From: a virus
DNA length: 43,954 nt
Reading direction: 5' to 3' (one strand)
IMG/VR virus record: IMGVR_UViG_3300030020_000047
Span: 1 to 43,954 of that record
Part shown: piece by piece, positions 2,594-43,954 of the stretch
Position numbering within the stretch: position 1 is the stretch's first letter
Layout of the letters: each line of letters starts with the position of its first letter
Translations under genes and position numbers: made by a program
Notes under the pieces: model-generated
Told to the model about the DNA's origin: nothing
What the model saw: the letters and a program-made list of their open reading frames with translations, nothing else
Databases searched by the model: none

Positions 2594-2825
2594 TGGTTGG
2601 ATGTGTGGTGGCGAGCGCCAAGAACTCGGAGCGGGGTTCGGAATGCTTGGAGTTCCTTGCTGCGTGGCCGGGGTAAAAGAGACTCCTTATCCGGGCGCTG
2701 GGTGCGGAAACCGAAGTGGGGGCGGCTGATGACGAGGGGTAGGTGAGGGACCCAGACCGACGTAACCCAGAAATTTTCATAAAAATTTTTCTGAAAAGAT
2801 TTACGATCTAAGTTAGACTCGCGTG
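2594..2825. other. non-coding divergent region before the terminase genes
   Basis: No convincing gene is present; the leftward frame at 2580-2780 has no ribosome site and runs into the hairpin repeat. The first 150 bases are GC-rich with several G runs. Bases 2770-2822 are strikingly AT-rich, with near-palindromic AGAAATTTT and AAAATTTTTCT flanking a CAT centre, then GTTAGACT (inverse of AGTCTAAC) just before terS. Divergent promoters and a packaging (pac or cos) site would be expected here by analogy with other phages. I cannot point to a clear sigma-70 promoter or cut site. Confidence 0.4.
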
Positions 2826-3458: not shown

Positions 3459-4998
3459 GCCCGCGCTCGCCGCCAAGCAGGAGATGGCGAGCCGGATCAT
3501 GGCGCGCAGAAAGCTGCTGTCGTTCGTGCGGCGCATGAACCCGAAGTACATGGCTGGCTGGGTGCATGAGGATATCTGCAGGCGGTTGGAGAGGTTCAGC
3601 GACGACGTAGCGGCTGGCTTAAGCCCACGGTTGATGCTCTTGATGCCGCCGCGTCATGGTAAGAGTGAGTTGGCCTCCAAGATGTTCCCGGCGTGGCACC
3701 TTGGACGACACCCGGATCACGAATTCATCGCCTGCTCGTACAACATCTCCCTGGCGATGGGGTTCTCCAAGAAGATCAAGGCCCTGTTCGACGACCCTGC
3801 GTTTCAGACTGTGTTCGACGCCCGATTGAACCCCGACAACCGCTCCACGGAAGAGTGGGCTATCGCCGGGGACACAGGCGGCTACGTCGCAGCCGGTGTC
3901 GGCGGTGGGATCACAGGCAAGGGCGCGCACATCCTGGTCATTGATGACCCGATCAAGAACGCGGAAGAGGCGGACAGCGCCACCACGCGCGAGTCCCTGT
4001 GGGACTGGTACGGCTCGACGGCTTACACGCGCTTGGCCCCAGGTGCCGGCGTACTTGTCATTCAGACATGGTGGCACGATGACGATCTGGCTGGCAAGCT
4101 GCAGCAGGCCATGATCGCCGACCCGGAGGCTGACCAGTTCGAGATCGTCAAATACCCGGCGATTGCGGAGCACGACGAGTATCTGGATACCGACACTGAC
4201 TTAATCGTCTACGACACCGCCCCGGCGAACGGTCGGCTGCTGCGGCAGAAAGGCGACTGCCTCCACGAAGCCCGCTACGATATCGTTAAACTTCGCCGGA
4301 TCAAGGCGACCATCGCCAACCGCTTCTGGGCTGCGTTGTACCAGCAGAACCCGGTACCCGACGACGGCAGCTACTTCACCAAGGATCAGTTCAAACGTGG
4401 GCCGATCCCGTTGCTACTCCAGAGCCGGGTCTACATCGCGTGGGATTTCGCCATCAGTGAGAAAGCTCACAACGATTACACGGTCGGTACGGTAGGTCTG
4501 CAGGATTACGACGATGTGCTGCACGTAGCGGAGGTGGTGCGGTTCAAGTCTGCTGACGCTTTTTTTATCGTCGAATCTATTTTAAATCTATCTAAGAAGT
4601 GGTACCATGCGAGTCTAACGATTGGCGTCGAGGATGGGCAGATTTACCGCTCGATTGAGGCCCTGCTGAAAAAGCGCATGCGGGAGACGAATTTCTACCC
4701 CTCCATCGTTGTCCTCAGACCGATTACGGACAAGCTGGCGCGAGGCAGGGCGCTTCAGGGCCGGATGCAGCAGGGCATGGTGAGCTTCAACCACACAGGC
4801 GAGTGGTACGACACGGTCAGAAATGAGATGCTGCGCTTCCCGGCTGGCGTACACGATGATTGTGTTGACAGTATGGCGTGGATGGCGCAGATGGCAGTGG
4901 GTAGTGAGCCGCCGCAGATGCCGAAGGCGAAGGGCAAGAAGTCCTGGAAAGACAGATTACGCGGTACCCGCGCGAACGCGTCGCACATGTCGGCGTAG
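3448..4998 (+). CDS. terL: terminase large subunit (ATPase and nuclease)
   Basis: This is the motor that cuts concatemeric phage DNA and pumps it through the portal into the procapsid. Motifs in order: Walker A MPPRHGKSE near residue 66, Walker B LVIDDPIKN near 165, and the coupling motif IQTWWHDDDLAGKL near 205. The C-terminal RNase H-like nuclease has acidic residues in WDFAIS (about 332), VEDGQ (about 395) and HDDCVDSMAW (about 473). At 516 residues it is full length. The GTG start at 3448 is preceded by GAGGTGATGC inside terS, so the two are coupled. Bases 4558-4622 are unusually AT-rich and use rare-looking codons (TTA, CTA, TCT), which may reflect an embedded control site. Confidence 0.95.
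   Translation: MTTKPALAAKQEMASRIMARRKLLSFVRRMNPKYMAGWVHEDICRRLERFSDDVAAGLSPRLMLLMPPRHGKSELASKMFPAWHLGRHPDHEFIACSYNISLAMGFSKKIKALFDDPAFQTVFDARLNPDNRSTEEWAIAGDTGGYVAAGVGGGITGKGAHILVIDDPIKNAEEADSATTRESLWDWYGSTAYTRLAPGAGVLVIQTWWHDDDLAGKLQQAMIADPEADQFEIVKYPAIAEHDEYLDTDTDLIVYDTAPANGRLLRQKGDCLHEARYDIVKLRRIKATIANRFWAALYQQNPVPDDGSYFTKDQFKRGPIPLLLQSRVYIAWDFAISEKAHNDYTVGTVGLQDYDDVLHVAEVVRFKSADAFFIVESILNLSKKWYHASLTIGVEDGQIYRSIEALLKKRMRETNFYPSIVVLRPITDKLARGRALQGRMQQGMVSFNHTGEWYDTVRNEMLRFPAGVHDDCVDSMAWMAQMAVGSEPPQMPKAKGKKSWKDRLRGTRANASHMSA
4558..4622 (+). promoter_or_regulatory. AT-rich patch inside terL with recurrent motifs
   Basis: Within GC-rich coding DNA, this stretch holds a run of T, TATTTTAAAT, ATCTATCTAA (4586-4595) and TCTAACGAT (4614-4622). 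The last two motifs recur in the intergenic regions before the genes at 22586 and 31670. That suggests an internal promoter or protein-binding site. No standard sigma-70 pair is evident, so this is only a candidate. Confidence 0.3.
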
Positions 4999-11552: not shown

Positions 11553-12005
11553 ATGTCGAAGAACACCAAGCTCGCCCCGATAGCCCTGACCGTCACCGCT
11601 GCCGCTTATACAAGCGCGTACTGCGTCGGGGGCCTGATCACGATCCCGGTATCGCCCGTCCAGTCCACATCAGGGCGCATACTCGACGCCCAGGTGAACT
11701 GCGCTGGTACGCAGACATGCACTTACAACCTGATCCTGTTTAACGCGCTGCCGGCCAGTTCGACGTTCACGGATCGCGCAGCGATCACGATCAACTCCGC
11801 AGATTTCGGCAAGGTCATCGGCATTCTGCACCTGACCGACGTGACGACTGTCGGCGGTCTGACCGTTGCGCAAACCACAGCGGACTGCGCGAAGGCGTTC
11901 TCCGGTGCCAGCCCAGCGTTCTATGCAGTGCTTGAGGTCATCGGTACGCCAACCTACGCGACCGTCAACGACGTGCAGCTCGCCGTCGGCTACATGCCGG
12001 ATTAA
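11553..12005 (+). CDS. structural protein of unknown role, 150 aa
   Basis: The start at 11553 (MSKNTKLAPIALTVTAAAYT) is chosen because it follows the connector stop by 8 bases and removes an implausible Arg- and His-rich leader. It is a beta-rich, Thr/Ala/Gly-rich small protein with four Cys residues (YCVGG, NCAGTQTCTYN, DCAKAF), which is unusual for an intracellularly assembled virion protein. It resembles the decoration-like protein at 9911 in composition and probable fold. The neighbourhood (connector before, FCCH-like protein after) suggests a head surface or connector role. Confidence 0.5.
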   Translation: MSKNTKLAPIALTVTAAAYTSAYCVGGLITIPVSPVQSTSGRILDAQVNCAGTQTCTYNLILFNALPASSTFTDRAAITINSADFGKVIGILHLTDVTTVGGLTVAQTTADCAKAFSGASPAFYAVLEVIGTPTYATVNDVQLAVGYMPD

Positions 12006-13333: not shown

Positions 13334-14626
13334 ATGCTTGGCTTTTCGCCGGTCGCAAGCGCCCCTTTCGCGGGGCAGACAGGAAACAGAAACGTCACCG
13401 TTGGGTTGACGGGTGTTTCCATGTCCGGCGTGGTCGGCTCGGTTCTCTTCGCGCTGGCGATGGGTCTCGCGGGGCTGGCCGGTACGGGCGGGGCTGGTGG
13501 CGTAACACACACGACTGCTCCGACGATTTCAGGCGTTGCCGGTACGGGCGCGTCGGGATTGTTAGCGTACTCGCAAGCTGTGAGCGGTGTGGCCGGTACG
13601 GGGGCGTCAGGTGCAGCAGTTTCTTCCCTTGCTGTCGGGCTGACCGGCGTAGCGGGAACGGGCGGGGTAGGGGTAGCGGCTCCGTCTATCTCCTCGACAC
13701 TGACAGGTGTGGCCGGTACGGGGGCAGTAGGTACAGCAGTTTCTTCCCTTGCTGTCGGGCTGACCGGCGTAGCGGGAACGGGCGGGGTAGGGGTAGCGGC
13801 TCCGTCTATCTCCTCGACACTGACAGGTGTGGCCGGTACGGGGGCAGTAGGTACAGCTTCGGTATTTTCGGCCTCGGCGATCACGGGCGTCGCAGGCGCG
13901 GGAGCAACCGGGCAGATAGCGACATCTCCTGCGCTTATGGGCGTGGCTGGAATGGGGGCGGCTGGATCGCTCACCTCGTCCAGAATTGCAGCTATAACCA
14001 GCGTGGCCGGAACGGGCGCAGTCGGCTCCGCTACAGCGTCTACCTCCTCAGCACTTACCGGCGTATCTGGCACAGCTGCGACGGGCGCAGTCATCATCCC
14101 AGGAGGCGCTGCACTCAGTGGTATGGCTGGCGCGGGCGCGGTCGGAACAGTTATCCCCTCCAAAACCTTTGCTGTCACTGGCCTAGCTGCGACTGGCGCA
14201 GTTGGCTCTGCCATATCGTCTACCTCGCTGACGCCCACAGGGGTGGCTGGTACGAGTGCAGTCGGTTCAATTACGCCGACCATTTCTTCGTCGCTCGCCG
14301 GCGCAAGTGGTGCAGGCGGCGTCGGCGCTATTACTCAGGCGCGGGCCGCAAGTCTCGCAGGAATTACTGCCACAAGCGCGGCGGGCTTAACCGCGCCAAC
14401 CATTTCTTCAGCGCTGGCAGGGAACAACGGCGCTGGCGGCACAGGCGCTGCCGCACCGATCACCGCGCTCGCTGGAAACGTCGCGACGGGCGCAGTCGGC
14501 ACTGTCTCTGCGAGCGTAACCATTACCGCCGAGCAGCCTGGGCTGATCCAAGAACTCTATGTCGTCGCCCCCGTAGTACGCAACCTTTACATCACCGCAC
14601 CTACCGTGCAGGAGTTCTTCGTATGA
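13334..14626 (+). CDS. Gly-rich tandem-repeat protein, 430 aa
   Basis: After about 30 unique residues, the protein consists of roughly 18 repeats of about 20 residues with consensus LTGVAGTGAVGTAxSSxxxx, followed by a unique C-terminus (QPGLIQELYVVAPVVRNLYI). Two adjacent 40-residue blocks are identical at the DNA level (13614-13856). The C-terminal YVVAPVVRNLYITAP ladder looks like a trimerisation or docking strand. I associate similar GVSATGSVG repeats with phage fibre proteins, where they probably form a beta-solenoid or glycine-rich shaft; that role is inferred. The stop overlaps the receptor-binding protein gene by ATGA, so a shaft or adaptor for that protein is plausible. Confidence 0.65.
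   Translation: MLGFSPVASAPFAGQTGNRNVTVGLTGVSMSGVVGSVLFALAMGLAGLAGTGGAGGVTHTTAPTISGVAGTGASGLLAYSQAVSGVAGTGASGAAVSSLAVGLTGVAGTGGVGVAAPSISSTLTGVAGTGAVGTAVSSLAVGLTGVAGTGGVGVAAPSISSTLTGVAGTGAVGTASVFSASAITGVAGAGATGQIATSPALMGVAGMGAAGSLTSSRIAAITSVAGTGAVGSATASTSSALTGVSGTAATGAVIIPGGAALSGMAGAGAVGTVIPSKTFAVTGLAATGAVGSAISSTSLTPTGVAGTSAVGSITPTISSSLAGASGAGGVGAITQARAASLAGITATSAAGLTAPTISSALAGNNGAGGTGAAAPITALAGNVATGAVGTVSASVTITAEQPGLIQELYVVAPVVRNLYITAPTVQEFFV
13614..13856 (+). repeat. perfect 120-bp tandem duplication
   Basis: Bases 13614-13733 are repeated without mismatch at 13734-13853 (identity runs to about 13856). The unit is two 20-residue protein repeats. Flanking repeats are similar but diverged, so this copy arose recently. 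Confidence 0.95.
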
Positions 14627-18490: not shown

Positions 18491-18909
18491 AAAAACTATT
18501 CGCTGCTCTCTCGCTGCTCGTTCTTTCGAGCTGCGCACCGGCCTACGCTGACGACATATCGCCTAATGCGTTTCAGTTCGATCAGACGGCGTTGTCTCCT
18601 ACCACGCTGATCATGGAGGGGGCGTTCGACGCGCTGCTGGTCATCGACAGCCATCAAACGAACAGCATCCGGTCGGCGTGCCCAGTCCATGAGACTTGCG
18701 CCTTCCAGGAAACAAACCCGTGGCTCGGTAGCACCGACCCAGATGCGGTACGGGTAAGAAATTACTTTATTGCGTCTGCTCTTATCCATGGGCTGATCAC
18801 GTATCTGCTGCCGCAGGATTACCGGATTTTCTGGCAGGGCGCGTCGTTCGGCTTGGAGATTAACGCGGTTCGGATGAATGCCTACGCAGGGCTTGGACTT
18901 AAATTTTAA
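18487..18909 (+). CDS. phage lipoprotein, 140 aa
   Basis: The N-terminus has a bacterial lipoprotein signal: MKKLFAALSLLVLSSC with lipobox LSSC, Cys at 16. The mature part contains a region (FQETNPWLGSTDPDAVRVRN, then YFIASALIHGLITYLLPQ) that I recall in small phage and bacterial proteins of unknown function, and a C-terminal amphipathic strand (MNAYAGLGLKF). It is expected to be anchored in a membrane, probably periplasmic or outer-membrane facing. It is the first gene of the lysis region, coupled by ATGA to the fibre gene. It could serve lysis, superinfection control or envelope modification. Confidence 0.7.
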   Translation: MKKLFAALSLLVLSSCAPAYADDISPNAFQFDQTALSPTTLIMEGAFDALLVIDSHQTNSIRSACPVHETCAFQETNPWLGSTDPDAVRVRNYFIASALIHGLITYLLPQDYRIFWQGASFGLEINAVRMNAYAGLGLKF

Positions 18910-28129: not shown

Positions 28130-30304
28130 ATGAGCGACAATGTAAGCCCGTTGAGCATGCAGCAGAATGCAGCAACCGCAGCTGGGACAGCATCGACACA
28201 GATGCAGGCGTTTATCACGCAGCTGTCGGCCCTGACGAATTTACCGGGGAACACCAAATTTACTCTATCCGACACACTTAACACGAGTTCACTACAGGCG
28301 AGCATTCAGCTCCTGCTGAATGATGCGTCTCTCGTGCCGCCCACGCTGGCGACGACTCCGGCGTACACTCGTCCGACAGCGCCGACGCCGATCAGTTCGA
28401 ACGCGGTGATCACCCCGCCGACTTTTGTCGCACCCAGCCTACCGACTCTGTTGAACCCCGTAGCGCCGGTGGTAGGCACCGCGCCGTTCACAAGCGCGCT
28501 CGCCACGATTGACTTCCCCGTCGTGCCAAACGCCCCCACGATCAGCCTGCCCACGGTGCCGGTGCTGCCGACGATCACAGTCACTGCGCCGAACGCGCCG
28601 AGCGTGTCGTTGCCTTCGGTGCCGTCGCTCGCGGACATAGCCGTCACAACGCCTGTGCGTCCGGCCCTCACGCTGCCGGCAGCGCCAGTGTTCAACAACA
28701 TCGTGATGCCTACGATCACGTCGATCACGTTGCCGACATTGACCGCGCTGGCTCCGAGCGAACTGCTCCCTGACCCGACGGACTTGTTCGCGTTCAGTGA
28801 GAGCGGGTACAGCTCGCTGCTGCTACTGGCCGGCCAGCAGAAGCTCGCGAACGACTTGGCGAACGGTGGGTACGGCATCGAGACAGCCGACGAGCTGGCG
28901 ATCTGGCAGCGTGCGCAGGATCGTGAGCTACGCGCAGGCGTGGCAGCGGCGGCTGACATTGCCCGTGCGATGGCTGCGCGGGGCTTCGCTATGCCGCCCG
29001 GTGCGATGCTGGCGCAGATGGCGTCGAGCAATCAGGCCACGCTGGAAAAGATGAGCACGTTGTCACGCGACACAGCCTTGAAGCGCGCCGACATGTACGT
29101 GGAGAACAGGAAGTTCACGATAGATCAGGCGCGGGAGTACGAAGCGCTGACGACAGCGCTGTACAGCGCCGTCATGGAGCGCGCGCTGAACGCGTCGAAG
29201 GCTACTGCTGAGTTCGGCATCGCTGTCTATAATGCCAGCCTCGCCAAGTTCGACGCGCTCACGAAGGCGTTCTCCGTTCAGGTGCAGGCGTATGGCGAAG
29301 AGGTGAGGGCGGCGGTCGCCACGCTGGAAGTTCAACGGTTGAGCCTGGAGGTGGTGCGTACCGAGACTGAAGTACAGAAAACGCAGGCTCAGTTGTATCT
29401 TGACCAGATCGAGGCGCAGAAGCTGCCGCTCGAAATTTACCGCACGGACGCCCAGGTTCAGCAGATGCTCGCCGACACGCAGGTCAACGTGCAGCGCAAT
29501 CAGGTGGCTGTCTACTCTGCCGAGATGGACGCACAGAGAATACCAGTCGAGCTGTACCGCACAGAAGCCCAGGTTCAGCAGATACTGGCTGACACACAGG
29601 TCAACGTGCAGCGCAACCAGATATCTGCCTACATCGCGGAGACCGAAGCGCAGAAGGTGCTGGTGGACATGTACCGCACGGATATCAGTGCGCTGGAGGG
29701 GCTGGCGCAGGTGGAGCACCTGAAGCTCGACACGTTCCGCTGCCAGGTTGAAGCCTACGCTGAAATGATCCGCGCCCAGACCCTGCAGCTGCAGGGGTAC
29801 GAGGCCCAGACCCGTGGCGACATGGTGCAGGCCGAGATATACAAAACACAAGTAGACGCCCAGCTAGTACAGGCGGAGTATGCCAAGGCGCAGGCGCAGA
29901 TCAACGAAGCGAACACGCAGATCGCCGTGGAGAACCTGAAGGCGAATCTGGCGATCATTCAGACGAATTCTGACGTGTATCGTGCGCAGGCGCAAGGCAC
30001 GTCGCTGACGAACGACGCGCAGTCCCGCTCGTTCGCCGCCCGTACTGAGGCGTTCCGGTCGGTCGCCAGCGCGTATGACAGCCTGGGCAAGATCGAGATC
30101 GCCGGGGCGGAGATACAGCTGAAAGCTGCCTACGAGTCCCAGTTCCTGTCGAACGACTACTCGAAAGCGCTGCTCCAGATCGACGCGAACAATGCCATTG
30201 CCGGCGCGCAGGTACTGGCGCAAACCGTTCAAGCGAATCTGGGTCAAGTGTTGGCGATTGCTACGGACGTCAATAACTTTACGGCTGCGGGCGGCTCGTC
30301 GTAG
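28130..30304 (+). CDS. long coiled-coil virion protein, 724 aa
   Basis: Residues about 75-220 are Pro/Thr/Val-rich and beta-like (PTISLPTVPVLPTITVTAPN, LTLPAAPVFNNIVMPTI). Residues about 240-680 are almost entirely helical, with a long coiled coil rich in Gln, Ala and Glu. Within it are two 39-residue repeats (YRTDAQVQQMLADTQVNVQR) at 29438 and 29555. The end (QVLAQTVQANLGQVLAIATD) is also helical. It begins 3 bases after the previous stop. A fibrous or needle-like tail part, or a protein lining the tail, is plausible. I cannot assign a known family. Confidence 0.55.
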   Translation: MSDNVSPLSMQQNAATAAGTASTQMQAFITQLSALTNLPGNTKFTLSDTLNTSSLQASIQLLLNDASLVPPTLATTPAYTRPTAPTPISSNAVITPPTFVAPSLPTLLNPVAPVVGTAPFTSALATIDFPVVPNAPTISLPTVPVLPTITVTAPNAPSVSLPSVPSLADIAVTTPVRPALTLPAAPVFNNIVMPTITSITLPTLTALAPSELLPDPTDLFAFSESGYSSLLLLAGQQKLANDLANGGYGIETADELAIWQRAQDRELRAGVAAAADIARAMAARGFAMPPGAMLAQMASSNQATLEKMSTLSRDTALKRADMYVENRKFTIDQAREYEALTTALYSAVMERALNASKATAEFGIAVYNASLAKFDALTKAFSVQVQAYGEEVRAAVATLEVQRLSLEVVRTETEVQKTQAQLYLDQIEAQKLPLEIYRTDAQVQQMLADTQVNVQRNQVAVYSAEMDAQRIPVELYRTEAQVQQILADTQVNVQRNQISAYIAETEAQKVLVDMYRTDISALEGLAQVEHLKLDTFRCQVEAYAEMIRAQTLQLQGYEAQTRGDMVQAEIYKTQVDAQLVQAEYAKAQAQINEANTQIAVENLKANLAIIQTNSDVYRAQAQGTSLTNDAQSRSFAARTEAFRSVASAYDSLGKIEIAGAEIQLKAAYESQFLSNDYSKALLQIDANNAIAGAQVLAQTVQANLGQVLAIATDVNNFTAAGGSS
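29438..29671 (+). repeat. two 117-bp repeats in the coiled coil
   Basis: Units at 29438-29554 and 29555-29671 are about 80% identical at the protein level, and a partial third unit starts at 29672 (YRTDISALEG). Phase is exactly 117 bases, 39 residues. Confidence 0.85.
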
Positions 30305-30320
30305 GTGTATCATAGCAGGT

Positions 30321-31406
30321 ATGAAAATACCCCAACGCGCGTTTACCCTGGCTGAAATGGCTATTGTTGTGCTCATCGGCGGCATCATGCTGACGATGAG
30401 CCTCAAGACATGGATCGCTAAACTGAATAATTCAGCTTACGCCGAAACCGCCTCAAAGCAGGCGCAGATTAAGATTGCGCTGATCGGGTTTTTACGGACG
30501 AACGGTAGACTCCCATGCCCGAGTGCTATGAGCACTGCGGTTCCACCTGTGCCGACCGGGCTTGAGATACTGGGGCTACCAGCAGGTCGTGGATGTATCA
30601 ATAATCCCTATGGCGAAATCCCTTGGGCGTCGCTTGGGGTTTCGAAGGATATCGCACAAGATGGATGGGGGAACTTCTTTACCTACCGTGTGGCGACGGC
30701 GGCGACCGCTATCGTCCCCGCGCCAGTTACAGTGCCGGTACCCCCCATGCCAAAGAATCTCAACCAGAACTGGACATCATTAGCAGCGTCCGCCAACGCT
30801 TTCGACATCACTAGCCTCGTAAGCTCGGCAACTTCAAACCGCCAGACAATCCAGATCGATCAAGGGGATGGAGTGGACGCGCTTGTGCCGATCACTTATA
30901 ACGCTGTGGTGGTGATTCTCTCGTCCGGTAAAAACGGTTTTGGGGCGTTGACGCTGCAAGGAGTCCGCAACACAGCGCCGCCTGTCGCGCCGGTCAACCA
31001 CGCCGACGAAACCACTAATGCGACCCCAGGGACGCTAGTTTTCATCATGCGGCCATATACAGAACTGTCGACCGCATTCGGTGGGCCGTTCGACGACGTG
31101 GTGGCATTTATGTCGCCGCAGGATTTGCTGCAGCCGCTGGTGAGCGAGGGGACGCTGGGGGCGTGCAGATCATACTGTGCCGCTGCCGCTGCCCCAGTGC
31201 TCAGTGTTACTGCGACTTGTACCCCGCCCGGGGGTGGAATATGCACATGTGCCTCTCTAGGCGTACCAGGAACTCCGACTCCCAGCTCATGTACTAACAA
31301 CGCTACCCCCTCATCTTGCTCTATCTGCGCGGTCGTGTCATCGCCCCCTGCCTCCTGCACACCGACAAATGTCCCTATCGGCAATCCAGCGCCTAACTGC
31401 CCATAA
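30321..31406 (+). CDS. type IV pilin-like (pseudopilin) protein, 361 aa
   Basis: The start at 30321 gives MKIPQRAFTLAEMAIVVLIG: a 7-residue basic leader, cleavage after Ala7, Phe at +1 and Glu at +5 (Glu12), then a hydrophobic helix. This is the class III signal cut by prepilin peptidase (PilD). Ala replaces the usual Gly at -1, which is tolerated in some prepilins. Further conserved parts are LRTNGRLPCPS, RGCINNPYGEIPWASLG and DGWGNFFTYRV, as in bacterial minor pseudopilins. The C-terminal 80 residues are Cys- and Pro-rich (CTPPGGGICTCASLG). No other pilus gene is near. It sits between tail and ejection genes, so it is probably an accessory gene affecting host type IV pili or secretion, or less likely a virion part. 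Confidence 0.8.
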   Translation: MKIPQRAFTLAEMAIVVLIGGIMLTMSLKTWIAKLNNSAYAETASKQAQIKIALIGFLRTNGRLPCPSAMSTAVPPVPTGLEILGLPAGRGCINNPYGEIPWASLGVSKDIAQDGWGNFFTYRVATAATAIVPAPVTVPVPPMPKNLNQNWTSLAASANAFDITSLVSSATSNRQTIQIDQGDGVDALVPITYNAVVVILSSGKNGFGALTLQGVRNTAPPVAPVNHADETTNATPGTLVFIMRPYTELSTAFGGPFDDVVAFMSPQDLLQPLVSEGTLGACRSYCAAAAAPVLSVTATCTPPGGGICTCASLGVPGTPTPSSCTNNATPSSCSICAVVSSPPASCTPTNVPIGNPAPNCP

Positions 31407-31416
31407 GGCGCAAAAA

Positions 31417-31611
31417 ATGAAAACTCGTTTCCTCCAAGCCCTTTATCTCATGCCCGCAATCATGATGCTGATGATGTGGATAGCTGCTGCGCCCAGTTAT
31501 GTATCTCAGTGCAGCAACTGGCAACTTCTCGGAACCATCGCCTTGTCGGCTTTCGGGTCCGCTTGGTCCGTCGCCATATTCGCTCACTCCGTGAAGGGCG
31601 GCTCGGTATAG
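31417..31611 (+). CDS. small membrane protein with two helices, 64 aa
   Basis: The start at 31417 follows AAGGCGC 6 bases upstream and lies 10 bases after the pseudopilin stop. Helix 1 is at about 7-25 (ALYLMPAIMMLMMWIAAAP) and helix 2 at about 37-57 (LGTIALSAFGSAWSVAIFAH), joined by a loop with one Cys (SQCSNW). The end is KGGSV. It is probably co-transcribed with the pseudopilin, as a two-gene accessory unit; it might anchor or regulate it. No known family. Confidence 0.6.
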   Translation: MKTRFLQALYLMPAIMMLMMWIAAAPSYVSQCSNWQLLGTIALSAFGSAWSVAIFAHSVKGGSV

Positions 31612-31615
31612 TGCC

Positions 31616-31669
31616 ATCTATCTAATATCTATCTAACGATGTAAAATTAGGGCTTCTTCGTGAGGCCCT
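31616..31669 (+). promoter_or_regulatory. repeated motifs and ribosome-site hairpin before the ejection genes
   Basis: ATCTATCTAA occurs at 31616-31625 and 31627-31636, running into TCTAACGAT (31632-31640), then an AT-rich stretch. A hairpin at 31649-31669 (AGGGC with GCCCT plus three inner pairs, loop TTCGT) ends at the start codon. The only Shine-Dalgarno (GAGG, 31662-31665) is in its 3' arm. A promoter here and translation control by the hairpin are inferred. Confidence 0.45.
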
Positions 31670-33982
31670 ATGAACAACATCCAGAAATCCTTCAAAGCCA
31701 AGGCCCAGATGGGCCTGCGCAGCACTCAACCTGCCTTAACCCAACCTCTGCATCTATCTAACGGTGGGCAGGGTCTTCGCCAGCAGGGCTTTGTTCAAGG
31801 CCCTGGCACCGGCACCAGCGACAGCGTTCCTGCCATGATCTCCAAGGGAGAGTACGTGCTGCCGGCTGATACCGTCGCGCACGTCGGCAAAGCCAACCTG
31901 GATGCGCTGAAGGACGCCACACACACGCCTGTGAACAACGGACTGCGGGGCGGCATGCAGCACATGGCTGACGGCGGGTTTATGGGCGACGCAGGGAACA
32001 TGATAGGCGAGGCCCGTGACTGGATGGCAAGCAAGATAGCCAACGGCGACGCCCCAGCGAATGCTCAAGAGACCGTCGCTCACGGACCTGTACCTGCCGG
32101 TAATTACACCGTCAGCCCCCGCAGCTTCGACACCCTCGCAGCTGACCCAGCGCTCGCCGCTCCCACTGGCGTCCGCGCAGCTGACCCTGCCGCTGGTTAC
32201 ACGCGATATAACCCGAGCATCACCACCACGCCCCCCACGCCCCCCGCAGCGCCTGAGTTGACCACTACCCTCGGTGCCGCACCGCAGGCCGCTCCTGCCG
32301 CATCGACAACCACAGAATCCGCTCCAGGTATCGTTTCCCGCGCGGCAAATGGGGTGCGCTCGATGGGTAGTTGGCTGGGCAGAGCCGCGAACGTGGGTGG
32401 CGTACTGGGTGGCACATACGCTGCTGCAGACGCCGCGCGCGACATGCACTTGAATGGGGTCAACACCGACAACTCTACACGTCTCGCTGGCGGTACTGCG
32501 CTCGGGCTTGGGTCTGCGGGGAGCTTCGTACCAGCGCTTGCCGGTGGGCTTGCCGCCCCGCTCACTGCTACCGTTGGCGGTGCGGCGTTGATGGGCAATC
32601 AGATCGGTAAATCGATCACCAAAAGCAACCCATCTTTGGCTGACGGGCTGGCAAGCCCTGGCGAAGCGATAAGCCGCTGGTGGAATGGCCAGCCGCTGCT
32701 GCACCAAGAAGCCGGTACCGCACACATGCCGGGTGGAGATACACAGACCCCAGGACGACCCGACTCCTACTATAAAGACCAAAACCCAAGCGCTGCCGTG
32801 CTCGCTGCTCAGGCTAACTCGCGAGGGGCGGATACTGTCTCTGCGCCGACAACCCCAGCGCCGACAACCCCAGCGACCCCCAGCACCCCAGCGCCGACCG
32901 TAGCCTCTGCTCCTGTTCCTGTTCCTGACCCCATCGTCGGTAAAGACGGTATGGCGACAGATGGTAGCGGCAACCCTATCCCCGGCTACGGCTCAATGAC
33001 CAATTCGAGCGGGAAGCGCGTGTTTTTCTCCCCCGGCTCCGGTACGCAGCAGGGGTCATCCCCCGGCTCCGTGGCTGCTAACCTGCGCGCAGCCTACGCG
33101 CCGACGCAGTACGCCGACGACAGGCCGGGTGAGGCGATGCGAGATTTCGCAGCCGGGCGGGGGCTTCAATCAGGCAACTCTGGTGGTCTTGGTCAAGGCG
33201 ACTCACTCGCCGATCTCGCTTACCGTGGGGGCATGCAGAAAGCCGCTATGCGCCAGCAGGGGCTGAACATTCAGCAACAACAGGTTACTGGCGATCAAGG
33301 GCTGCGCAGCCGGGAAATCGACTCCCGTTACGGCTCGGAAATGTACGGCCATGACGTGCAGCGCGAAAACAACCAGAGCACTGTGCAAGCCAGCATGATC
33401 AATTCCGCAGCCCTGCGTGATCAGGCGCGGGCGCAGATGGCTATCGCGCAGATGAACCACCGCGATCTGCTCGGTCAGCAGGATATAACCAACAAGCGCG
33501 AACAGGATGCGCAGAACTTCGAGCAGAACCAAAAATCCGATACCCAGTTGACGACTGACCTCCAGAAGCAGAACCCCGGCTCCGAGCCAGGGAAGTTCGA
33601 CGACGCTACCGTGGCGCAGCAGAGAACTGGCATTGGTCAGTCAATGGCTGCGCTTGGCATCAAGAGCTATGCCGCGCTCGATCCGCTGAAGCGCCAGCAG
33701 CTGCTGGCTGGGAGCAAACTGATTTCCAAGATCAACTCCAACGCTTCGACCTGGAACCCATTCATGGCGGATTACATGAAGACGGTAATGCCCCATAACC
33801 TCGTAGGTATGAAGAGGATGACAAACGGTGACTACCAGACGCCAGATTATACTGATGCCTCTGGGGCAAAACGCTCCGGTCAGGTTATCCCTGGTCGTAT
33901 TGTCGACAAGGTGAACTCCGACCGTATCATGGGTCAGCCGTCAGGCGACGAATTCTCCTCGCTCATGCAAGGAGGTCAATAA
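31670..33982 (+). CDS. putative internal virion (ejection) protein, 770 aa
   Basis: Residues about 28-70 carry the motif QGFVQGPGTGTSDSVPAMIS, then KGEYVLPADTVAHVGKANLD. From memory, this motif marks large phage virion proteins that are injected or line the tail. A Pro/Ala/Thr-rich low-complexity middle follows (about 110-450; PTTPAPTTPATPSTPAPTVA). Between about 185 and 310 lie Gly- and Ala-rich helices that could insert in a membrane. The C-terminal half is helical and Gln-rich (MQKAAMRQQGLNIQQQQVTG). It overlaps the 2109-residue gene as TAATG, and large paired ejection proteins are common in podoviruses. The start depends on a hairpin-embedded GAGG. Confidence 0.6.
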   Translation: MNNIQKSFKAKAQMGLRSTQPALTQPLHLSNGGQGLRQQGFVQGPGTGTSDSVPAMISKGEYVLPADTVAHVGKANLDALKDATHTPVNNGLRGGMQHMADGGFMGDAGNMIGEARDWMASKIANGDAPANAQETVAHGPVPAGNYTVSPRSFDTLAADPALAAPTGVRAADPAAGYTRYNPSITTTPPTPPAAPELTTTLGAAPQAAPAASTTTESAPGIVSRAANGVRSMGSWLGRAANVGGVLGGTYAAADAARDMHLNGVNTDNSTRLAGGTALGLGSAGSFVPALAGGLAAPLTATVGGAALMGNQIGKSITKSNPSLADGLASPGEAISRWWNGQPLLHQEAGTAHMPGGDTQTPGRPDSYYKDQNPSAAVLAAQANSRGADTVSAPTTPAPTTPATPSTPAPTVASAPVPVPDPIVGKDGMATDGSGNPIPGYGSMTNSSGKRVFFSPGSGTQQGSSPGSVAANLRAAYAPTQYADDRPGEAMRDFAAGRGLQSGNSGGLGQGDSLADLAYRGGMQKAAMRQQGLNIQQQQVTGDQGLRSREIDSRYGSEMYGHDVQRENNQSTVQASMINSAALRDQARAQMAIAQMNHRDLLGQQDITNKREQDAQNFEQNQKSDTQLTTDLQKQNPGSEPGKFDDATVAQQRTGIGQSMAALGIKSYAALDPLKRQQLLAGSKLISKINSNASTWNPFMADYMKTVMPHNLVGMKRMTNGDYQTPDYTDASGAKRSGQVIPGRIVDKVNSDRIMGQPSGDEFSSLMQGGQ

Positions 33983-43238: not shown

Positions 43239-43954
43239 CTACTTGGCGCTAATAACTTGCCAGCCGGAACCGCGCAAATCGTCATATTCCGCCGTCATGG
43301 TAGCATTCTTATGCCCCAACATTGCCTGGGCGAACTCAGGACCATACTGATCCCGATACAATCTTTCGGACAAACTGCGTATTTCATGGAAAGAAGCAGG
43401 CGTTCGTCCAACTGTCGGCACAACCTTGGCTTTTTTATAAGCTGTACTGAACGCATGGGTGATTGCTGCTACCGAAAGCCCGTCACCGGGCTTCGCTGTC
43501 GCGTGGCGTTTCTGGTGGTGGACCATGAATTGGCTGACCGCACGGTTTCGGCACTGCTTGATCACATCGGCAATTGTCCTGTTCACAACGGCAAGACCGA
43601 TGCTGGCGTCCTGCTGCAGCCGCACTTTTCCCTGCATCTTACCAGGGACGAAGTAGATGAACCCATCACGGAAGTCGGCGAACATAGCTCCAGCGATCTC
43701 TTCCCGGCGCTGTGCAGTCAGCAGGGCCAAGTCCATCGCATCGACCAGCCACGGCTGCGCGACTTCCCTGACAGCATGATACTGCTCAAGCGATAGTCGG
43801 TCGCGCTTGACTTCGTATGCTGGCCGGTAAGTGGAATCGACGGGGTTTTTACCGTCCGCTACCTCGCCCTTGGAGATTGCCATCTTGAATACGTCGCTGA
43901 GACGGGACCGAATAAAACCAGCAGTGGCAGCACCACTTTCTAGCTCGACGGCAT
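43239..43954 (-). CDS. int: tyrosine-recombinase integrase, 5' end cut by window edge
   Basis: The leftward frame is open to the window edge with no stop (visible part about 238 residues), so the N-terminal arm-binding domain is missing. The part present begins with AVELESGAATAGFIRSRLSD of the core-binding domain. The catalytic domain shows the family set: Arg in LLTAQRREEIAG, a Lys in the GKMQGKVR hairpin, H-x-x-R in FHEIRSLSERLY, His in LGHKNATM, and the nucleophile Tyr in TAEYDD. It catalyses integration and, with an excisionase, excision. It supports a temperate phage. An internal ATG at 43883 is not the likely start. Confidence 0.92.
   Translation of the reverse strand, partial: AVELESGAATAGFIRSRLSDVFKMAISKGEVADGKNPVDSTYRPAYEVKRDRLSLEQYHAVREVAQPWLVDAMDLALLTAQRREEIAGAMFADFRDGFIYFVPGKMQGKVRLQQDASIGLAVVNRTIADVIKQCRNRAVSQFMVHHQKRHATAKPGDGLSVAAITHAFSTAYKKAKVVPTVGRTPASFHEIRSLSERLYRDQYGPEFAQAMLGHKNATMTAEYDDLRGSGWQVISAK

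Follow-up and report, generated by a model that had tools for sequence, protein, structure and literature searches.

A phage-borne type IV minor pilin apparently captured, with its operon partner, from a Betaproteobacterial pilus cassette

The stretch of DNA analyzed here (the window) is a 43,954-base viral contig record. Our comparisons indicated that two adjacent genes in its late region, one for a minor pilin (A) and one for a small membrane protein (M), are a captured piece of A-M-B, a minor-pilin cassette of Betaproteobacterial chromosomes whose third member is a further pilin, B. They also indicated that related phages acquired A-type pilins separately. Below we present the evidence for these two conclusions, and we discuss how a captured pilin may affect the pili of the host.

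Results

The prepilin and its family

Gene A (30321–31406, plus strand; ATG at 30321, stop codon ending at 31406) encodes an A-type minor pilin of 361 aa, made as a prepilin. Its N-terminus, MKIPQRA/FTLAEMAIVVL, can be read directly as a type IV class III prepilin signal, with a seven-residue leader (MKIPQRA, 30321–30341, plus strand), Ala at −1, Phe at +1 (Phe8) and Glu at +5 (Glu12); this is the complete signal named in the original prediction. The NCBIfam prepilin domain TIGR02532 matched from residue 5 onward at 16.9 bits, above the cut-off of 16.3, and the Pfam N_methyl match was slightly below its cut-off (20.8 vs 21.2 bits, E = 2.7e-4). An AlphaFold2 model of the protein (mean pLDDT 69) showed pilin architecture, that is, a long N-terminal helix (residues 10–61) and a beta-sheet head. 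When this model was searched against PDB folds, the top six matches were all type IV pilins, with weak scores (best E 0.011). The major pseudopilin of type II secretion, GspG, was ruled out as an identity for A (TIGR01710, 20.1 bits vs a cut-off of 88.85).

Two stretches that had been singled out as conserved minor-pilin parts, GEIPWASLG and DGWGNFF, did fall in regions conserved across the family. The long Cys-rich end (residues 283–361; 31167–31403, plus strand), likewise pointed out beforehand, is predicted to be disordered and proved to be a family trait: it closes with a PIGNP-P--C motif that is common to the Oxalobacteraceae homologues. We confirmed 187 bacterial relatives of A by tblastn and kept 80 (best E 2e-88), with the head conserved among them; thus, the prepilin assignment goes beyond chance. 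PHROGs, a PDB sequence search and the BFVD viral fold library yielded no relative of the A pilin, and tblastn against 50,697 named phages and 72,556 plasmids returned nothing meaningful. The claim that no further pilus gene lies nearby held over a longer distance: a 59-kb contig of the same phage contained no other prepilin gene, and no prepilin peptidase was found in the phage records, whereas the related host genome (a Janthinobacterium MAG) has such peptidases.

The partner M and the region behind it

Gene M (31417–31611, plus strand) encodes a two-helix membrane protein of 64 aa. It is 67% identical over 63 aligned codons to a homologue in the Janthinobacterium MAG (L061:9342-9533) that is sited between the A and B pilins. 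The small two-helix membrane partner of the original prediction was borne out, and its start, placed earlier at 31369, was moved to 31417 because of the extent of the homologue.

The intergenic region that follows (31612–31669, plus strand) contains two ATCTATCTAA repeats and a hairpin with a 9-bp stem over the Shine-Dalgarno of the next gene. This hairpin is strong (31647–31670, z −3.38) and reaches the start codon at 31670. The repeat ATCTATCTAA occurs at window positions 4586, 31616, 31627 and 31752, and with up to one mismatch there were six matches vs 0.8 expected. A candidate promoter had been proposed behind A and M; we found no sigma-70 promoter match there in the window, and the repeated element is present instead. 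Ahead of the pair, too, the window held no clear promoter of their own, and A starts 16 bp after a late virion gene. A palindrome, TCTAAGTTAGA, was found exactly or with one mismatch at window positions 2807–2817, and in the related prophage (L164) at 11791–11822 and 18760–18770. In that prophage it gave six matches vs 0.04 expected, and it precedes gene blocks in both the window phage and the prophage; we regard it as a candidate regulatory or promoter sequence of the phages, which may bound the pilin slot.

The phage and the borders of the slot

The window phage encodes a terminase, a portal protein, a head-closure protein and other virion proteins. Genes A and M had been described as lying between structural modules, and both do sit within the late module with virion genes on either side. 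The left border of their slot is a virion structural protein (28130–30304, plus strand) that is distantly like that of F116-like phages, e.g., phiC725A (24%), and the right border is a protein with a tape-measure-like N-terminus (31670–33982, plus strand). The 59-kb contig extends the window and is 100% identical to it over the shared slot region. A chimeric assembly was rejected, in that the pilin and both phage junctions recur, 100% identical, in two further contigs assembled from two metagenomes; contigs identical to the window may stem from related samples.

A tyrosine-recombinase-like integrase, read by eye, begins on the minus strand at window position 43239 and is completed in the longer contig. 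Because of this integrase-like gene, and counting also a related prophage in a bacterial genome, the window phage is very likely temperate. No tRNA genes were detected in the window or in the related regions scanned. A tandem duplication was observed at 13586–13857 (self-match of ~153 bp, 98%, at an offset of 120 bp), inside gene 13334–14626.

Bacterial origin of A and M

The nearest relatives of A are found in Oxalobacteraceae and are up to 50–57% identical near full length, with the best matches to both phage proteins in the Janthinobacterium MAG (L061; 57% for A, 67% for M). In this family, the A and B genes lie within or adjoin MSHA-like pilus operons. The operon of Sapientia aquatica (L063) has A and B directly after genes for an MshL-like secretin, a TPR protein, an MshE-type assembly ATPase of the c-di-GMP-binding type, and a GspF/PilC-type platform. 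Gene order A-M-B is found in the Janthinobacterium MAG, in Methylotenera and in phage G006, and in the MAG an assembly ATPase lies ~10 kb from A-M-B on the same contig. Because bacteria have this order, A and M amount to two thirds of the bacterial cassette; pilin B is absent from the window phage and present in phage G006.

The homology of A extends over the whole protein, and A nests within the bacterial family, with the Oxalobacteraceae rows, at supports of 100/98 and 100/99. Phage A resembles the A-type minor pilins of these MSHA-like operons, a family with no curated name (typified by Sapientia aquatica L063 and Janthinobacterium L061), in leader type, head motifs and the end of the Cys-rich tail, and it has M as its gene neighbor, a partner shared with L061. 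It differs in that it is encoded within the late module of a phage, where pilin B, a secretin, an ATPase and a peptidase are all missing. Judging from operon context, the A-type pilin would be part of a pilus assembly complex. Between the window phage and the MAG, substitutions in M were mostly synonymous (dN 0.18, dS 0.71), and for A we obtained dN 0.37 and dS 1.63, the latter near saturation; part of the branch is bacterial in both comparisons. The phage-made pilin of the original prediction thus appears to be a real pilin with a partner, but one captured from a bacterial cassette and neither isolated nor invented by the phage.

The slot in related phages

A search for synteny across relatives, suggested at the outset, found the slot conserved and the pilin accessory. 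In L006, L007, L008, L013, L014, G017, G018 and G027, the slot has no pilin and the structural gene leads directly to the next virion gene. The slot of G016 (L170, 10522–11773) holds two unrelated genes of 175 and 202 codons. Because most relatives lack a pilin there and one has other cargo, we consider the slot an accessory ("moron") site, and the pilin is an extra gene where relatives carry none or carry other cargo. The F116-like phages (Hollowayvirus; phiC725A, H66, LKA5) offer a further comparison: the temperate phage phiC725A shares the order of structural gene, slot, and a gene that precedes a very large protein. This phage uses type IV pili, but its slot is without a pilin and holds an unannotated reverse-strand ORF instead (L202, 10388–10738, minus strand; 116 codons, with a signal-peptide-like start).

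The Janthinobacterium MAG also holds a prophage of this phage group, with a terminase 80% and a portal 74–76% identical. The slot of this prophage (G034) has a different A-type pilin, 32% identical, at exactly the same position. A weak promoter-like site and a good terminator flank the prophage pilin, neither of which was seen around the window pilin; a small membrane ORF of ~50 codons with one hydrophobic stretch precedes it, and the terminator, of the intrinsic type, stands behind it. In G006/G007, genes A, M and B are behind a 2,289-aa virion protein, i.e., at another site. Given phage G006 and the G034 prophage, we rejected specificity of the pilin for the window phage. A maximum-likelihood tree placed the window pilin with the Oxalobacteraceae rows at 100/99 support and required three separate origins for the three phage pilins; not one of 200 bootstrap trees gave them a single origin. 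Long branches lead to two of the three, which makes their exact places in the tree uncertain.

The likely host

The G034 prophage and the closest A-M-B operon occur in one MAG, on two contigs joined by binning only, and some other genes on the prophage contig look like ordinary chromosomal genes. Taken together, the prophage, this operon and the prepilin peptidases of the same MAG point to a soil bacterium, a Janthinobacterium-like member of the Oxalobacteraceae, as the likely, if not proven, host of the window phage. We sought the neighboring virion protein in 394 Oxalobacteraceae genomes and recovered the G034 prophage and one weak match (G111), so that prophages of the G034 type appear to be rare in the family.

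Discussion

Minor pilins start pilus assembly. The explanation that we favor, with about as much confidence as doubt, is that the captured host minor pilin is matured by the host and changes the host pili, limiting re-infection by pilus-using phages. In this view, a moron slot in the late region of a temperate F116-like phage would house A and M, both taken from a type IV pilus cassette of the MSHA-like kind. Host prepilin peptidase would cut the prepilin after Ala7, and the mature pilin would sit in the inner membrane beside M. There it may join the host A pilin, or take its place, in the complex that initiates assembly at the pilus tip, such that the number, dynamics or tip of the host pili would be altered. 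An infected cell or lysogen would then take up fewer pilus-using phages, including the phage's own progeny. Entry of a phage pilin into the host pilus machinery had been proposed from the outset, and the pilin homology and operon cassette support it as a possibility. Homology speaks for the first two steps, maturation by the host and entry into the pilus-initiation complex; the effect on pili we infer.

Several published results are relevant here. In V. cholerae, the ratio of minor to major pilins sets pilus dynamics (PMC13249403). Phages profit from tuning pili: the prophage proteins Tip, Aqs1 and Zip do so via PilB or PilZ, and the effect of Zip has been interpreted as protecting progeny against binding to lysogens (PMC11656802). 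The F116-like phage phiC725A depends on type IV pili, and pilus-using phages are restricted in cells lysogenic for it (PMC5217972).

An alternative is lysogenic conversion, in which the phage pilin would be a working variant that alters adhesion, surface colonization or DNA uptake of the lysogen and has no anti-phage role. Consistent with this, head, tail and partner M show the conservation of the host gene. The related prophage, moreover, has its pilin in a unit with a terminator behind and a weak promoter-like site ahead, as in morons, and another phage has other cargo in the slot. In the window, however, A-M follows 16 bp behind a late virion gene and has no recognizable promoter, and we consider this alternative unlikely.

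We give somewhat less credence to the decoy of the original prediction, a phage pilin that jams the assembly complex from within, causing the loss of pili. In its favor, the polymerization helix and Glu+5 are kept, and some phage proteins are known to shut pili down (PMC11656802). Jamming is not favored, since the whole protein and its partner are under constraint: the head domain, the motif at the end of the Cys-rich tail, and M are all kept, which is more than a jam needs. Moreover, excess minor pilins raised, and did not stop, pilus dynamics in V. cholerae (PMC13249403). With so much of the pilin and M under constraint, we rate a pure decoy as less likely than a substitution or a change in stoichiometry.

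It is improbable that A and M are host DNA picked up by chance and not used. F116-like phages are generalized transducers (PMC5217972) and pilin B was not kept in the window phage, but the frames are intact, dN/dS is well below 1 vs the nearest relative (with part of that branch bacterial), related phages made three separate acquisitions, two of them at the same slot, and identical copies are present in three contigs. Least probable of all is a pilin built into the particle or used at exit, as its position within the structural module might suggest, because most related phages with the same virion genes lack it, it needs a host peptidase and membrane insertion, and its homologues are located in pilus operons.

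Known phage proteins against type IV pili mostly act on the motor or on regulators. Pilin A is phage-coded like Tip/Aqs3 (D3112, JBD26), Aqs1 (DMS3), Zip (JBD26) and the Pf4 pilus inhibitor, and it would share with them an action on the type IV pilus. The binding partners of Tip, Aqs1 and Zip belong to the motor or its regulation (PilB, PilZ), whereas A is a pilus subunit; we set them apart on the basis that A is a 361-aa membrane-anchored pilin and not a small cytoplasmic protein that binds PilB or PilZ.

Other phage-borne pilins, some annotated and some not, share the prepilin N-terminus with A. These include genes in Synechococcus phage ACG-2014f (annotated 'pilin'), Acinetobacter phage Acibel004 ('PilE-like'), Aeromonas phage Aes508 and S-CAM7, and in the uncultured contigs L143, L144, L146, L148, L149, L151 and L154. 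They differ from A in type, being mostly short or PilA-like, and belong to unrelated phages. The L148 gene (5989–6465) encodes a PilA-like pilin of 158 aa between terminase- and portal-like genes and had no match in named phages. In the large phage contigs L141 (7953–8612) and L142 (7944–8612), a pseudopilin lies behind a repeat protein of 810–822 aa and ahead of a FecR-like protein, a locus that reads as another phage-borne pilin cassette. In the literature that we searched, pilins encoded by phages have no described function.

Phage control of host pili is already known; what is new here is a phage-borne pilus subunit with its operon partner, which is not a new category. The window phage supplies the pilus subunit itself along with that partner, and such pilins have been captured more than once in related phages. 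We suggest, tentatively, that capture of host minor pilins has recurred in several phage lineages and that these phages use the pilins as interchangeable subunits, giving the type IV pilus of the host a new tuning or a new tip to the detriment of rival phages; superinfection would then be controlled by subunit exchange and not by motor blocking. An isolate of Sapientia aquatica carries the native operon and therefore offers a ready experimental system. The window phage and related viruses probably alter pili that many phages use for entry, and if A does act on pili, prophages would have a new means of controlling a major receptor of phages.
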